Shown here in pieces: positions 12,601-18,685 of a stretch of 21,375 nt of DNA (position 1 is its first letter; every line of letters starts with the position of its first letter). Both the position numbers and the translations under genes were made by a program. Under the pieces are notes generated by a model. It did no database searches. It saw nothing but the letters and a program-made list of their open reading frames with translations, and had not been told where the DNA came from. Location: the IMG/VR virus record IMGVR_UViG_3300048591_000342, positions 1 through 21,375 of that record; one strand, written 5' to 3'. This DNA comes from a virus.

Positions 12601-14133
12601 ATGGCGAGTAAGATTGATTCCAACGTGACTGGGCTTCGGTACGCCGAAGAGGCTTCCATCAAGGTTCTGCCCGGCTCCCCTGTGTGGTATCCGGCCGAAC
12701 CGAACGGGTACAACGATTTTGGCGGTCAGATCGCCACTATTGCCCGGAACCCCATCAACCCTTCCCGCCAGCGGAAGAAGGGCGTGACTACCGACCTGGA
12801 TGCCTCCGGAGGTTTTGGACAAGACCTCACCCAAAGCAACCTTACCCGGCTGCTCCAGGGCTTTCTCTTCGCGGATATGCGGGAGAAGAGCACCACCCAA
12901 CCGCTAAACGGGGCGGCCATCCCGATCACTAGCGTGACGGCCGCTACCAACACCTACGCAGCGGCCTCGGGCCTGACTATCTTTGGCTCCAATTACCTGA
13001 TCCTGGCCTCCGGCTTCGGTCAGGCGACCAATAATGGGTTGAAGCGGGTCATCTCATCTACCGCGTCCACCGTGGTTGTGTCGCCGGGAACCGTGGTTGA
13101 TGAGCCCTCCCCGCCCGCTACTGCAAAGCTGCAGAAGGTCGGCCGGGCCTGGCTGGCCGGAGAACTGAGTGTGGACGTGTCCGGAAGCTACCCCCGCCTT
13201 GTTCGGGCTTCTGGTACCTTTGACCTCACCCTGCTGGGTCTTATCCCGGGTGAGTGGATCTTTATCGGGGGAGATTCCGCCCTCCAGCGGTTCGTGAACG
13301 CGGAGAATAACGGATTTGCCCGCGTCCGGGCGGTAGACACCACCTATATCGAACTGGACAAGACCTCCAACACGATGGTAGCGGAAACCGCAACCCTTCA
13401 GACAATCCGCCTTTACTTTGGGAACGTCCTGAAGAACGAAGCGGCCGCCAACCTCATCAAGCGGCGCAGCTACCAGCTGGAGCGTACCCTGGGCGAAGAC
13501 GGAAGCGGCACCATGTCTGAGTACCTGGTTGGCGCGGTACCCAATGAGCTTTCCCTCCAGATTCGCCAAGCCGACAAGATCACTGCCGATCTGGGCTTCA
13601 TTGCGGTAGACCACGAACAGAGGGACGGGGCGACCGGCCTGAAGTCTGGAAGCCGTCCCGACCTTATCGAATCGGATGCCTTCAATACTTCCAGCGACTT
13701 TACCCGGGTGAAGCTACACCAGATCGTGGACGGGGACACCAACCCCTCCCCGCTCTTCGCCTTCTTCACCGAACTCACACTGACGGTCAACAATAACGTG
13801 TCCCCGCTGAAAGCTGTTTCCGTGTTGGGAGCCTTCGATGTTGCTGTGGGAACCTTCGCGGTGTCCGGGAACCTGACGGCCTACTTCGCTGACATCGCAG
13901 CAGTTCAGGCGGTTCGGAATAACGCGGATGTCACGCTGGACTTCGCCTTGGCGAAGAATAACGCGGGTATCGTTGTGGACGTTCCTATGATTGCCCTCGG
14001 GGACGGCCGCCTGGCGGTAGAACAGGATCAGCCCATCACCCTTCCCCTTACTGTGGAAGCGGCCGCCGGTGCGAACAACCACACCCTGCTGTTTAATGAA
14101 TTCCCCTATCTGCCGACCCTGGCGGAAGGCTAA
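12601..14133 (+). CDS. Major tail tube protein (large form)
   Basis: This 510-aa protein forms the stacked rings of the tail tube. Assignment comes from position (tail terminator before, frameshifted chaperones after) and from a beta-rich tail-tube composition, with the N-terminal RYAEEASIKVLPGSPVWYPA and C-terminal VVDVPMIALGDGRLAVEQDQ and LPLTVEAAAGANNHTLLFNE segments. At 510 residues it is far larger than lambda gpV (246). The middle (about 100-270) looks like an added Thr/Val-rich beta domain that may project from the tube surface. There is no signal peptide or membrane segment. CGT, CGC and CGG arginine codons are all used. Confidence 0.85.
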   Translation: MASKIDSNVTGLRYAEEASIKVLPGSPVWYPAEPNGYNDFGGQIATIARNPINPSRQRKKGVTTDLDASGGFGQDLTQSNLTRLLQGFLFADMREKSTTQPLNGAAIPITSVTAATNTYAAASGLTIFGSNYLILASGFGQATNNGLKRVISSTASTVVVSPGTVVDEPSPPATAKLQKVGRAWLAGELSVDVSGSYPRLVRASGTFDLTLLGLIPGEWIFIGGDSALQRFVNAENNGFARVRAVDTTYIELDKTSNTMVAETATLQTIRLYFGNVLKNEAAANLIKRRSYQLERTLGEDGSGTMSEYLVGAVPNELSLQIRQADKITADLGFIAVDHEQRDGATGLKSGSRPDLIESDAFNTSSDFTRVKLHQIVDGDTNPSPLFAFFTELTLTVNNNVSPLKAVSVLGAFDVAVGTFAVSGNLTAYFADIAAVQAVRNNADVTLDFALAKNNAGIVVDVPMIALGDGRLAVEQDQPITLPLTVEAAAGANNHTLLFNEFPYLPTLAEG

Positions 14134-14156: not shown

Positions 14157-14615
14157 ATGAGCCTGTATAAACTGTTCAAGACCAATGAAAACCTGGAGAC
14201 AGACGGAATCTGGATTGAGTACGGAACCACCGCCGCCGGGAAGGCGATCCGGATCAAGGTCGCCCGTGCCGGGGGCCACAACTCCCGGTTCGCCAAGGCC
14301 CTGGAGAAGGCGACCCGCCCGCATAGGAAAGCCCTTCAGGTTGGTTCGCTGGACAACGCTACCGCTGACCGCCTCTTCCGGGAGGTGTTCGCGGATACTG
14401 TCGTGTTGGGCTGGGAGAACGTGGAAGGCCCGGACGGCCAGGAGCTTCCATTCAGCCGGGAGAACGTCCTGAAGCTGTTTTCCGATCTTCCCGACCTCTT
14501 CAACGACCTCCGGGAGCAGGCCAACAACGCGGCCCTCTACCGGGAAGAGCTACGGGAGGCCGACCTGGGAAACTCTGGGGGGTTGTCCTCTACGGACTCG
14601 AACAGGGCCCCGTAG
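14157..14615 (+). CDS. Tail assembly chaperone, short (G-like) product
   Basis: This 152-aa protein is the zero-frame product of the paired tail chaperone gene, located between tail tube and tape measure as gpG is in lambda. It is soluble, charged and helical (FAKALEKATRPHRKALQVGS; LFREVFADTVVLGWENVEG) and would coat the tape measure during tail assembly. The last 12 residues after the GGG GGG codons at 14577-14582 are Ser/Thr-rich and look unlike the rest, as expected for sequence read only when frameshifting fails. It stops at TAG 14613-14615, which lies inside a predicted frameshift-stimulating stem. Confidence 0.88.
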   Translation: MSLYKLFKTNENLETDGIWIEYGTTAAGKAIRIKVARAGGHNSRFAKALEKATRPHRKALQVGSLDNATADRLFREVFADTVVLGWENVEGPDGQELPFSRENVLKLFSDLPDLFNDLREQANNAALYREELREADLGNSGGLSSTDSNRAP

Positions 14616-14650
14616 AACAGAAAATCATTGAGCAGTGTACCCGGTTCGGG
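14577..14650 (+). promoter_or_regulatory. Programmed -1 frameshift signal with stem and possible pseudoknot
   Basis: Zero-frame GGG GGG (14577-14582) is followed after 6 bases by TCTACGG (14589-14595), which pairs perfectly with CCGTAGA (14610-14616). Loop bases 14597-14603 (CTCGAAC) can pair with 14644-14650 (GTTCGGG; six Watson-Crick pairs and one G-T), giving an H-type pseudoknot. Spacer length fits known stimulators. The heptamer is T GGG GGG, not the classic X XXY YYZ, so slippage most likely uses re-pairing of glycine tRNA on the second GGG. Confidence 0.7.
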
Positions 14651-14905
14651 CTACCTCTGCCGGAGAAGATACGGAACGCCCCGGGACTTTGGCCGGGGCT
14701 TGAGCTTTTTTATACCGGGTTCCTGGAGCTTACCTCCTCCCGGCAGCTCGGGATGAGCCTTGGCCCTATATCGCAGTTGTCTGTTCTGGAGTATTGCCTG
14801 ATCAGGGAGATAGACGGGGAGCAGCAGGAAGATTTCCTGTGGATTATCTCCCACCTGGATCAAAAATATCTGGAGTGGAGTGCGAACCGTGCCAAGCCTA
14901 AGTGA
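14579..14905 (+). CDS. Tail chaperone T region, made as a G-T fusion by -1 frameshift
   Basis: An open frame in the -1 phase runs from the G-run to TGA 14903-14905 and encodes about 107 residues (LYGLEQGPVEQKIIEQCTRF, then LELFYTGFLELTSSRQLG and DFLWIISHLDQKYLEWS). It has no ATG or GTG start with a ribosome binding site near its beginning, so it is best read as the T extension of the chaperone at 14157. Slippage on GGG GGG would give a fusion of about 249 residues. The T part has the helical and aromatic make-up of domains that bind tail tube subunits. The next gene starts at GTG 14889 inside it. Confidence 0.85.
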   Translation, partial: GVVLYGLEQGPVEQKIIEQCTRFGLPLPEKIRNAPGLWPGLELFYTGFLELTSSRQLGMSLGPISQLSVLEYCLIREIDGEQQEDFLWIISHLDQKYLEWSANRAKPK

Positions 14906-15329
14906 GTTTTCAAAAAGAATCCGCATACAGGCCTCCCGGATGGAGCAGGGAGTACAGGCGACCGTTCGCAAGGTCGCCCTTGCCATAGACCAGACGGTGG
15001 TGATGGGTACCCCGGTAGACACCGGCCGGGCCCGCTCCAACTGGATGGTTACTGTCGGGGCTCCCTCTGATGCTGTAATTTCTGCCTATGCCCCCGGAGA
15101 GGGGGGAAACACCGCCGCCTCCAATACCGCCGCCGCCCTGGAACAAGGGGCCGCCGTGATCGCCGGGTACGCAGGGGGCAGTAGTATTCACCTCACAAAT
15201 AACCTACCCTATATAGCAAGATTGAATGACGGGTATAGTGCCCAGGCACCGGCCGGTTTCGTGGAGAAGTCGGTACAGGTTGCCGCCGGAGTTGTGGCTG
15301 GTGCGAAGGTACTTGACGGGGGTGTGTAG
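14889..15329 (+). CDS. HK97 gp10-like minor tail/neck protein
   Basis: This 146-aa protein opens PSLSEFSKRIRIQASRMEQG, continues ALAIDQTVVMGTPVDTGRAR with SNWMVTVG, and ends near LPYIARLNDGYSAQAPAGFV. I recognise this as the HK97 gp10 type of siphovirus head-tail or minor tail proteins, with the VDTGRARSNW and RLNDGYSxQAPAGFVE landmarks intact. GTG 14889 is the preferred start because GGAG (14877-14880) lies 8 bases before it; GTG 14880 would sit on top of that site. Unusually for this family, the gene lies between the tail chaperones and the tape measure rather than among the head-tail connectors. Confidence 0.82.
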   Translation: MPSLSEFSKRIRIQASRMEQGVQATVRKVALAIDQTVVMGTPVDTGRARSNWMVTVGAPSDAVISAYAPGEGGNTAASNTAAALEQGAAVIAGYAGGSSIHLTNNLPYIARLNDGYSAQAPAGFVEKSVQVAAGVVAGAKVLDGGV

Positions 15330-18300
15330 TGTCTCGGGAACGCATTGAGATAGTTGTAACAGAGTCGGGCTCCCGTGTCGTAAAGCGGAACCTGGAGGGG
15401 ATCGGGACGGGGGCGGAAAAAAGCTCTGGGGCGGTAGACTTCCTGAAGAAGTCCCTGGCCTCCCTCGGGGTGGCCCTTTCCGCCTCAACCCTATTGAAGA
15501 CGCTAGACCAATACACCCAGCTGCAGAATCGCCTCCGGGCCGTGGGTCACGAGGGGTCAAACCTGGCCGAAGTATACGGCCGCCTTCAGACCGTTTCCAA
15601 TGACACCCGCTCCTCCTTGTCCGGCTCCATCGAGCTGTATTCCCGTCTGGCCGTTTCGTCAAAAGAGCTGGGCGTGAACACGGATGAGTTGGTCCAGTTT
15701 ACCTCCTCCCTGAACCAGGCCATTATTCTCTCCGGGGCTTCCGCACAGGAAGCGCAGGCGGGCCTGATCCAGTTGAGCCAGGGCATGGCCTCCGGAGCCC
15801 TTCGCGGGGATGAACTCCGGAGCGTGATGGAACAGCTCCCGGCCGTTGCCGATATTATCGCCCGCCAGATGGGAGTCACCCGGGGGGAACTCCGGAAGAT
15901 GGGGGAAGAAGGGGCTATCACCGCAAAAATCATCCTGGATGCCTTCGCGGCCGCCCGTGAGGAGCTGGGGGAGAGGTTCGCCAAGACGATTCCCACGATG
16001 GGGCAGAGCTTCCAGATACTCACCAATAATTTGACCACCTTTGTCGGGAAGGTTGACGAAGCCGGAGGGTTGTCCAGGGCCTTGTCGGGGAGTCTCATGG
16101 CCATGGCCAACGTCCTGGGGGCGGTCGCCGCCCGTGCAGACGATATTGCCGCCGCCCTGACCAACTTCGGCAAAGCCGCCGTGATCGCCGCTACCGCCTA
16201 CGGAACCCTGAAGGCGGCCACTGCGGTTCAAACCATCGTGGCGGCTACTTCCGCCTGGTGGGCCTACCGGAAGGCGATCGCCGCCGGAACCGTGGTACAG
16301 CTCGGGAGCGCCGAAGCTGAAAGGCAGAAGGCCCTGGCCGTGCTGAATAAGATGGCTGCTGAGAACGCAGCCGCCGCCACAACTCTCCGGGTGGCCCAGA
16401 CGGAACAGGCCGCCGCCGCCGCTCGGGTTGCCGGGGTACAGACCGTGGTGGCCCAACTGGCCGCTGAGAGGCAGTTGGAGGTTGTCCGGCTCCAGGCCCA
16501 GATAAATCAGATTGGGCGGAACGCCTCCATGGCCCGCCTTGCGGAGATACGGGCTGCGGAAATCGCCATGACCCGCTCCCTTACCGCCGCCCAGGCGGAA
16601 CTTACCGCCGCCACGACCGCTACGGCTACGGCACAGACCCGTTTGGCCGCTACCTCAACCGCCGTTTCCGGGGCCCAGGCTACCGCCGCCGCTACCGCAA
16701 CGACCGCCGCCGCTTCCACGACCCTGTTTGGGCAGGCCGCCAACTTTGCGAAGGGGGCCGTGGCCTCCCTCTGGGCCGTGATAATGGCCAACCCGTTTGT
16801 GGCCGCCGCAGTGGCCCTGACCGCGATAATCACCACCCTGTACCTTTACCGGGACGCGATCCGGATCGCCGAAGGAGAGACCACCTCCTTTGGAGACCTG
16901 TCCAAGGCGACCTGGGAGGGTATCGTGGCGACTATCCGCCCGGTAGGGGACGCGATCGGCAGCATGTTTTCTGCTACCGGGGACGCGATCCGGGCTATGC
17001 TGGGCGACTCTACGGAAGAGGTGAGAGGGCAGACCAAGAAGCAGGAGGCCTTCTGGCTGTACAGCATTCGCACCGTGTTGCGGATATTTGATATGCTGGG
17101 AGGCGGGGGACGGGCCGTGGCCGCCGGTATCGGGGCCGCCTTCGGTTCCGTGTTTGACTCCCTGAAGGCTCAGCTGCAGCTCCTTGTCCGGGCTTGGGAG
17201 GCGGCCACCAACTTTGATCTGGCCGGAGTAAAGGCGGCCCTTTCGGAATCCGCGAAGGGCTGGGGCGAACTCGGGGCAAACGCGGGCACTGCCTTCCGGG
17301 AAGCGTTTGATGAGCAGCTTCGCCGCCAGTCAGAATCCGGGCTGGAGGCCGCCCTGGATAAAACGATTAACCGGGCTCGGGAGATCGGGGAGAAGCGCCG
17401 GGCGATCGCCGTGCCCATGCCGGAGGTTTCCGTGTCTGTCGGGGGGGTTGTACAGGAGCCCGCCGCCCCGTCCGATGGGCTCCAGAAGTCGCTGGACAAC
17501 CTGATCGGGCAATACGACCGGGTACACGCGGCCCAAGAGGAGTACCGGAAGAATCTGGAGATTCTACAGGCGGCCGAAGCGGCCGGGATACCCGGCAGTG
17601 AACACGCCGCTCACGTCCGGGAGATCATGAAGAAACTGATGGAGGATTCGCTTGACCCCTTCGGGGCGGTTATGCGCTCCTTGAACGAAGAGTCTGCTCT
17701 GTTGGGCCTTACCGCCCAACAACGGGAGATAGCCAACCAATCCCGGAGTATTGAGCAGAGTTTACTGGGGCAGGGAGTTATCCTGAATGAACAGGAGATT
17801 TCCCAGCTCAGGGAGCGGCTGACCCTCCTCCAGCAGGAGACCGCCGCCACTGCCGCTCGTGAGCAGCTACTCCAGTCAGTTAAGGGAAGCCAAGCAGAGT
17901 TTGTGTCCCAACTTACCGCCATGAATCAGTTGATCAAAGACGGAAAAGTGACACAGGCTGAGGCGAATACTTGGTTGGTGGAAAGCCAAGGAGACCTGCT
18001 GGAGGGGACGCTAGAGCAGCAAAACGCCTTTGTGAAGGCCCACGAAGATGCCTATGCGAAGATAGCCGCCCTCCGGCAAGCCGACCTGATAAGCGAGCAG
18101 ACCGCCAATCAGGCAAAGGCTCGGGCTGACGCAGAACTATTCTCTCAGCGGGTAGCGGGGGCAAAAGACTTTTTTGGCAGTATGTCCTCCCTTTCCCGAT
18201 CCAAGAACAGAGAGTTGTTCATGATCGGGAAGGCAGCTTCCCTCGCCAATGCGACTATCTCTGGGATTGAGGCGGTTCAGGAATCCTATGCCAACGGGGG

Positions 18301-18685
18301 CGGATACCCTTGGGGCATTGCCCCGGCCGCCGCTATGACCGTGGTGCAAGCGGCTAACGTGGCTGCGATCGCCGCCCAGGAGCCCCCCGGCTTCGCCTTC
18401 GGTGGCGACTTCGCCGTGAGAGGAACCGGGGGAACCGACTCCCAGACAGTAGCCTTCCGGGCCACCCCCGGGGAAACCGTTTCAATCCGCACCCCGACCC
18501 AGAACCGGGAAGAGCGCCGGGCGGAAGCCCCGGCCGCCGCCCCGGTAACGGCCCGGATCATCAACGTGATAGACCCCGCCCTGGTTGGGGACTACCTCAG
18601 CAACTCCTCTTCCGATTCCGTGCTGGTCAACGCTATCCGCCGCAACTCTGATAGCCTGGCCCCGATCTTCCGTGGGCGGGGGTAG
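15329..18685 (+). CDS. Tape measure protein
   Basis: This 1118-aa protein sets tail length and is later ejected to help DNA cross the host envelope. The N-terminal tape-measure domain is clear (about 50-260): LDQYTQLQNRLRAVGHEG, LSGSIELYSRLAVSSKELGV, ALRGDELRSVMEQLPAVADI. An Ala/Thr-rich helical stretch spans about 345-470. One hydrophobic membrane-type region lies near 480-505 (MANPFVAAAVALTAIITTLY). Charged helices with coiled-coil character fill about 690-950. The C-terminus has the Gly-rich AFGGDFAVRGTGGTDSQTVA segment common in this group. It starts at GTG 15329, overlapping the previous TAG by one base. From length alone the tail would be around 150-170 nm. A seven-G run at 17441-17447 is read in frame. 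Confidence 0.95.
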   Translation: MSRERIEIVVTESGSRVVKRNLEGIGTGAEKSSGAVDFLKKSLASLGVALSASTLLKTLDQYTQLQNRLRAVGHEGSNLAEVYGRLQTVSNDTRSSLSGSIELYSRLAVSSKELGVNTDELVQFTSSLNQAIILSGASAQEAQAGLIQLSQGMASGALRGDELRSVMEQLPAVADIIARQMGVTRGELRKMGEEGAITAKIILDAFAAAREELGERFAKTIPTMGQSFQILTNNLTTFVGKVDEAGGLSRALSGSLMAMANVLGAVAARADDIAAALTNFGKAAVIAATAYGTLKAATAVQTIVAATSAWWAYRKAIAAGTVVQLGSAEAERQKALAVLNKMAAENAAAATTLRVAQTEQAAAAARVAGVQTVVAQLAAERQLEVVRLQAQINQIGRNASMARLAEIRAAEIAMTRSLTAAQAELTAATTATATAQTRLAATSTAVSGAQATAAATATTAAASTTLFGQAANFAKGAVASLWAVIMANPFVAAAVALTAIITTLYLYRDAIRIAEGETTSFGDLSKATWEGIVATIRPVGDAIGSMFSATGDAIRAMLGDSTEEVRGQTKKQEAFWLYSIRTVLRIFDMLGGGGRAVAAGIGAAFGSVFDSLKAQLQLLVRAWEAATNFDLAGVKAALSESAKGWGELGANAGTAFREAFDEQLRRQSESGLEAALDKTINRAREIGEKRRAIAVPMPEVSVSVGGVVQEPAAPSDGLQKSLDNLIGQYDRVHAAQEEYRKNLEILQAAEAAGIPGSEHAAHVREIMKKLMEDSLDPFGAVMRSLNEESALLGLTAQQREIANQSRSIEQSLLGQGVILNEQEISQLRERLTLLQQETAATAAREQLLQSVKGSQAEFVSQLTAMNQLIKDGKVTQAEANTWLVESQGDLLEGTLEQQNAFVKAHEDAYAKIAALRQADLISEQTANQAKARADAELFSQRVAGAKDFFGSMSSLSRSKNRELFMIGKAASLANATISGIEAVQESYANGGGYPWGIAPAAAMTVVQAANVAAIAAQEPPGFAFGGDFAVRGTGGTDSQTVAFRATPGETVSIRTPTQNREERRAEAPAAAPVTARIINVIDPALVGDYLSNSSSDSVLVNAIRRNSDSLAPIFRGRG

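Follow-up and report, generated by a model that had tools for sequence, protein, structure and literature searches.

How is the second reading frame of a phage tail gene pair brought into a protein when it has no start codon of its own? The question is raised by a locus in an IMG/VR virus record that is 21,375 bases long and may be a fragment of a genome; the complete record is the window analysed here. The gene for a tail assembly chaperone, G, is overlapped at its end by a conserved -1 frame, T, and the original prediction joined the two by a frameshift on a run of six Gs followed by a pseudoknot. Our analysis retains the frameshift and moves its site. We put at about 93% the probability that the locus encodes a G/G-T pair expressed by tandem -1 slippage at the heptamer GGGAAAC, probably with the aid of a hairpin. 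We infer the tandem slippage, the function of the first hairpin (HP1) in this phage and the roles of the two chaperones from sequence.

The gene pair and its reading frames

Judged by sequence, the locus belongs to a YuA/M6-like siphophage and encodes its G/G-T pair of tail assembly chaperones (Table 1). It is located between the tail tube gene and a block formed by the Neck1 and tape measure genes, and PHROG 8233, a family of fused tail assembly chaperones, matches the G half and the T half alike. The best named relatives, at 73-75% protein identity, are YuA, M6, LKO4, MP1412, FP1 and CN2 (Mesyanzhinovviridae). The locus thus has what marks a lambda-type G/G-T pair, namely the gene position, the chaperone families, a conserved startless T in the -1 frame and a heptamer at the junction. 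No match was returned by a PDB profile search with the G alignment or by a search of NCBIfam, and a search of the region against Rfam gave nothing but one chance match under the gathering score. A close relative of T (72%) is found on two contigs, L192 and L193, binned as an Anaerolinea thermophila MAG; they are likely to be phage contigs that were binned together with the MAG.

The -1 frame stays open between 14369 and 14905, and the first ATG, GTG or TTG in it comes only at 14753, 50 codons from its stop. The earlier description of a clean extension with no start of its own therefore holds for the open frame and for the missing start, although the stated length of 107 aa does not: measured from the heptamer, the extension has 110 aa.

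Table 1. Features of the G/G-T locus and its neighbours, in positions of the window
Feature	Position	Strand	Details
Tail tube protein gene, upstream of G	12601..14133	+	Pfam PF18906 Phage_tube_2
G, tail assembly chaperone, zero-frame product	14157..14615	+	152 aa, 16.8 kDa; PHROG 313 E=6e-41, PHROG 8233 E=1.5e-20
Shine-Dalgarno-like GGGAGG	14554..14559	+	7 nt upstream of heptamer; candidate stimulator
Heptamer G_GGA_AAC, putative tandem -1 slip site	14567..14573	+	conserved in relatives
T, -1 frame extension from heptamer	14573..14905	+	110 aa; PHROG 3817 E=6e-31, Pfam PF23812 Phage_TAC_18 E=2.5e-16
G-T fusion, predicted	join(14157..14573,14573..14905)	+	249 aa, 28.2 kDa, computed
GGGGGG, spacer and hairpin foot	14577..14582	+	in phase as GGG GGG; not conserved in relatives
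Competing stem	14579..14611	+	14579-14584/14606-14611 and 14585-14588/14594-14597; private to this phage
HP1, putative stimulatory hairpin	14581..14626	+	7 nt past heptamer; -14.3 kcal/mol
Zero-frame stop TAG of G	14613..14615	+	
HP2 position in this phage	14638..14666	+	weakened, 8/12 pairs by reading
Tail completion/Neck1 gene	14880..15329	+	PHROG 169; initial codons overlap T end
Tape measure protein gene, downstream	15329..18685	+	PHROG 3336, Pfam TMP_3

The putative slip site across relatives

The original prediction held that a classic heptamer is absent, but G_GGA_AAC is present, ends 3 nt upstream of GGGGGG and is the sole in-phase XXXYYYZ in the G ORF, where it is read in the zero frame as CTG GGA AAC (14565-14573). 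With Y as A or T, the window has 8 such in-phase motifs in 6572 codons, and about 0.1 would be expected in the 83-codon overlap of the two frames. GGGAAAC also occurs in phase at 15104-15110, within the Neck1 gene and probably by chance, so the heptamer on its own is not diagnostic. We accept it as the slip site because the same site is found in relatives, and that evidence is decisive.

The relatives came from protein-anchored scans of IMG/VR, which gave 125 distinct G loci; the pattern search relied on the closer alignments (A3 and A4), A1 and A2 being too diverse. In every one of the 125, T is in frame -1 with respect to G, and all except one carry GGGAAAC, AAAAAAC or AAAAAAT at the junction (122 by script and 2 by eye). 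GGGAAAC accounts for about 71 (69 by script, with L044 and L183 added by eye), AAAAAAC for 51 and AAAAAAT for 2. The GenBank phages examined, 17 of 17, agree in having a -1 frame T and a junction heptamer. Together with the PHROG and Pfam matches, these results bear out the part of the original prediction that placed a -1 frameshift in the tail chaperone genes. The group L018-L020 has no heptamer; its junction reads GCAAAAAGC (GAC GCA AAA AGC) before a TAA stop while T is still in the -1 frame, so slippage in that group would have to differ.

The A-site codon of the heptamer is almost always AAC, and the lysine codons AAG and AAA occur there in no member. GGG and AAA replace each other in the first triplet while the second stays constant, which fits joint re-pairing of two tRNAs and not slippage on a G-run. 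The C of the heptamer may also be retained because it opens a conserved Leu codon of T. At 76 of the 116 sites used for RNA analysis the zero-frame stop abuts the heptamer (TGA in 46, TAA in 24, TAG in 6), and the next base is often C or T; the Yuavirus-like clade, this phage included, has a 39-nt overlap with the stop not abutting the heptamer.

Slippage at GGGAAAC predicts the junction peptide EADLGNLWGVVLYG... and a computed G-T junction of ...EADLGN-LWGVVLYG.... The computed tryptic junction peptide of this phage would be EADLGNLWGVVLYGLEQGPVEQK in the fusion and EADLGNSGGLSSTDSNR in the zero frame.

It is possible that the Shine-Dalgarno-like motif upstream acts as a frameshift stimulator of the dnaX type. 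GGAG, GAGG or AGGA stands just 5' of the heptamer in 86 of 116 relatives, which is no more than synonymous shuffling gives (mean z -0.22), and the frequency would be explained by coding. The records of YuA (L194 2103-2263, of the -24/-12 type) and LKO4 (L201 1418-1441, rpoD-type) annotate promoters within T; a -24/-12 match was sought within T of this phage and not found.

RNA structure downstream and the alternatives

For the structure test, the stretch past the heptamer was refolded after its -1 frame codons had been exchanged for synonymous ones, drawn according to the codon usage of the sequence in question. The native RNA right after the heptamer proved more stable than the shuffles (mean z -1.98, n=116), against z values of -0.7 to +0.3 in most control windows, the exception being the second hairpin, HP2. 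The signal is limited to windows starting 0-9 nt past the heptamer, with a second peak at starts of 48-64 nt. In the family HP1 spans about +8 to +40 nt and HP2 about +62 to +95 nt downstream of the heptamer. Many members have an HP1 of the form GGUCCUGCUC...GAGCA-RGGNCC; HP2, inside T, corresponds to columns 72-83/89-100 of alignment A7 (examples are L072, L084, L054 and L027).

Covariation points the same way. HP1 has 34 double-change cells where 17.4 were expected (0/500 shuffles), and HP2, with both-side changes in 9 of its 12 pairs, has 76 where 50.5 were expected (0/500 shuffles); these shuffles keep the relatedness among the sequences, and the resulting numbers are not probabilities. 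Slid-register controls favoured the named registers, both on cells paired and on covariation score. RNAalifold found no consensus structure in 70 relatives, probably because bulges shift the register. These comparisons indicate that there is selected RNA structure downstream of the heptamer across the family, in the form of two successive hairpins. In the searchable literature, which covers few subscription papers, we saw neither hairpin described. For the family the evidence for a hairpin stimulator is good, and in this phage such a stimulator is plausible.

In the Yuavirus-like clade HP1 is a longer, bulged hairpin, and the 7-bp stem of the original prediction forms its upper part. Three pairs of the clade hairpin are changed on both sides (6/500 shuffles), and one compensatory pair is seen in this phage, where 14584/14623 goes from C-G to U-A at third codon positions (GTC/AAG to GTT/AAA). 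The pairs of HP1 here would be 14581-14584/14623-14626, 14586-14587/14620-14621, 14589-14595/14610-14616 and 14597-14599/14605-14607, and this is the best fold when the first bases are occluded. In free RNA the best fold is the competing stem, which uses the G-run and reaches -12.9 kcal/mol, or -18.5 with 14574-14577/14613-14616 added. A plain fold of 14574-14660 was unremarkable (z = -1.14). The 7-bp stem can form, but the competing stem wins. Taken by itself, this phage has a downstream structure no more stable than those of its synonymous shuffles (z 0.1 to -0.15). A perfect 7-bp stem lies 5-9 nt downstream of 0.6% of window positions.

That a single tRNA slips on the GGG GGG, driven by an H-type pseudoknot (14589-14595/14610-14616 with 14597-14603/14644-14650), we regard as very improbable, even though every element is present in the window. 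The G-run is in phase, the perfect stem containing the TAG follows 6 nt on, and the loop can form 7 pairs with the distal arm, one of them G-U; through G-U exchange most clade members can still form the loop pairing. Other G6 runs do occur in the window, as had been stated (24 matches, fewer than in shuffles, with five in-phase GGG GGG). However, a canonical heptamer stands just upstream of the G-run, and relatives such as TCTGGGAAG, TCTGGGGCG and TCTGGCAAG are without the run and all have GGGAAAC just upstream. Covariation, which the original prediction had named as a check, was counted in 14 clade members; not one pseudoknot pair had changed in both arms, and the pseudoknot did no better than shuffles. 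The distal arm, GUUCGGG, is taken by HP2 in relatives, being its 5' arm in most clade members (for example GUAUGCGGUUCGGG...CCCGACCGCAUAC). The stem is plausible as the upper part of the longer clade hairpin, which has some compensatory changes, while the pseudoknot finds no support; one private to this phage is possible, HP2 being weakened here. Slippage on the G-run would give the junction EADLGNSGGVV, against EADLGNLWGVV for the heptamer.

We think it just as improbable that T is made separately and not as a fusion, with ribosomes re-initiating or starting internally. The records of M6, FP1 and CN2 do list T as an ORF of its own from an internal start, but in this phage that position is ACC, 22 codons into the conserved T domain; conservation of the -1 frame reaches back to the heptamer, and a fused family exists. 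An independent start was accordingly rejected as a candidate, the start of these three records not being conserved and no start codon standing ahead of 14753 in the window. A joining of the frames by transcriptional slippage or by sequencing error is extremely improbable: there is a G6 run near the junction here, but in GGGAAAC the homopolymer is too short for polymerase slippage, and the frame relation is the same in all the distinct sequences.

Proposed mechanism and comparison with known systems

In tandem slippage at the heptamer, most ribosomes would terminate at 14613 and give G, and a minority at CTG GGA AAC would move back by one base, both tRNAs slipping together. The Gly tRNA would re-pair from GGA to GGG and the Asn tRNA from AAC to AAA, and reading would continue in the -1 frame from CTC (14573) to give the G-T fusion. 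HP1 would probably make the shift more efficient. If the analogy with lambda holds, the tape measure protein would be coated by the G part, and the T part would bring in the tail tube subunit.

A -1 frameshift in the tail chaperone genes is standard among long-tailed phages (PMC5009743), and a G/G-T frameshift with GGGAAAC is a known mechanism, both GGGAAAC and AAAAAAC having already been reported in phage tail chaperones. A -1 shift was predicted at GGGAAAC in Colossus and at AAAAAAC in phiCbK (PMC3556154), and in Acinetobacter phage Loki at an AAAAAAC adjoining the stop, as in much of this family (PMC5313236); these are single-genome predictions, and the passages that make them mention no downstream hairpins. 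Viruses of archaeal hosts use the same heptamers for G-T expression (PMC5009743). Kakheti25, KL1 and RcMotherGoose have homologous tail chaperonins with the same heptamer class, and their records annotate the joined frameshift product; their stop comes directly after the heptamer, unlike in this phage with its overlap. The closest named homologues, YuA, M6, LKO4 and MP1412 (Yuavirus), have the identical GGGAAAC and 39-nt overlap, but their records either omit T or give it an ORF to itself, and they annotate no frameshift. Yuavirus named together with frameshifting was not found in the searchable literature.

The locus resembles lambda G/G-T (G_GGA_AAG) in its position before the tape measure gene, in the late -1 shift, in the first six bases of the heptamer and in the short T. 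It differs in the A site, where lambda has AAG, read by tRNA-Lys, and this phage AAC, read by tRNA-Asn. The frameshift output of lambda depends on thiolation of tRNA-Lys (PMC7618472). In E. coli, A_AAA_AAC is reported to slip far less readily than A_AAA_AAG (PMC5009743), which counts against slippage with AAC in the A site here. The family, with AAC there almost throughout, may make up for a weak slip site by the stop, which mostly comes directly behind, and by the two hairpins further downstream. More tentatively, and with somewhat less than even confidence, we suggest that the family uses a composite signal, in which a weakly slippery Asn heptamer (GGGAAAC or AAAAAAC), the stop that usually adjoins it, and HP1 and HP2 (at about +8 and +62 nt) would together set the ratio of G to G-T through tRNA-Asn, and not through the thiolated tRNA-Lys of lambda.

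For this phage, the analysis corrects the slip site and the junction peptide, and it supplies the T product that the Yuavirus records leave out or treat as an ORF of its own. The family offers a testable case of how a bacterial ribosome may be made to slip on tRNA-Asn, at a codon, AAC, that is reported to be weakly shifty in E. coli. It raises the question of whether an adjacent stop and two hairpins compensate for a tRNA-Asn slip site.
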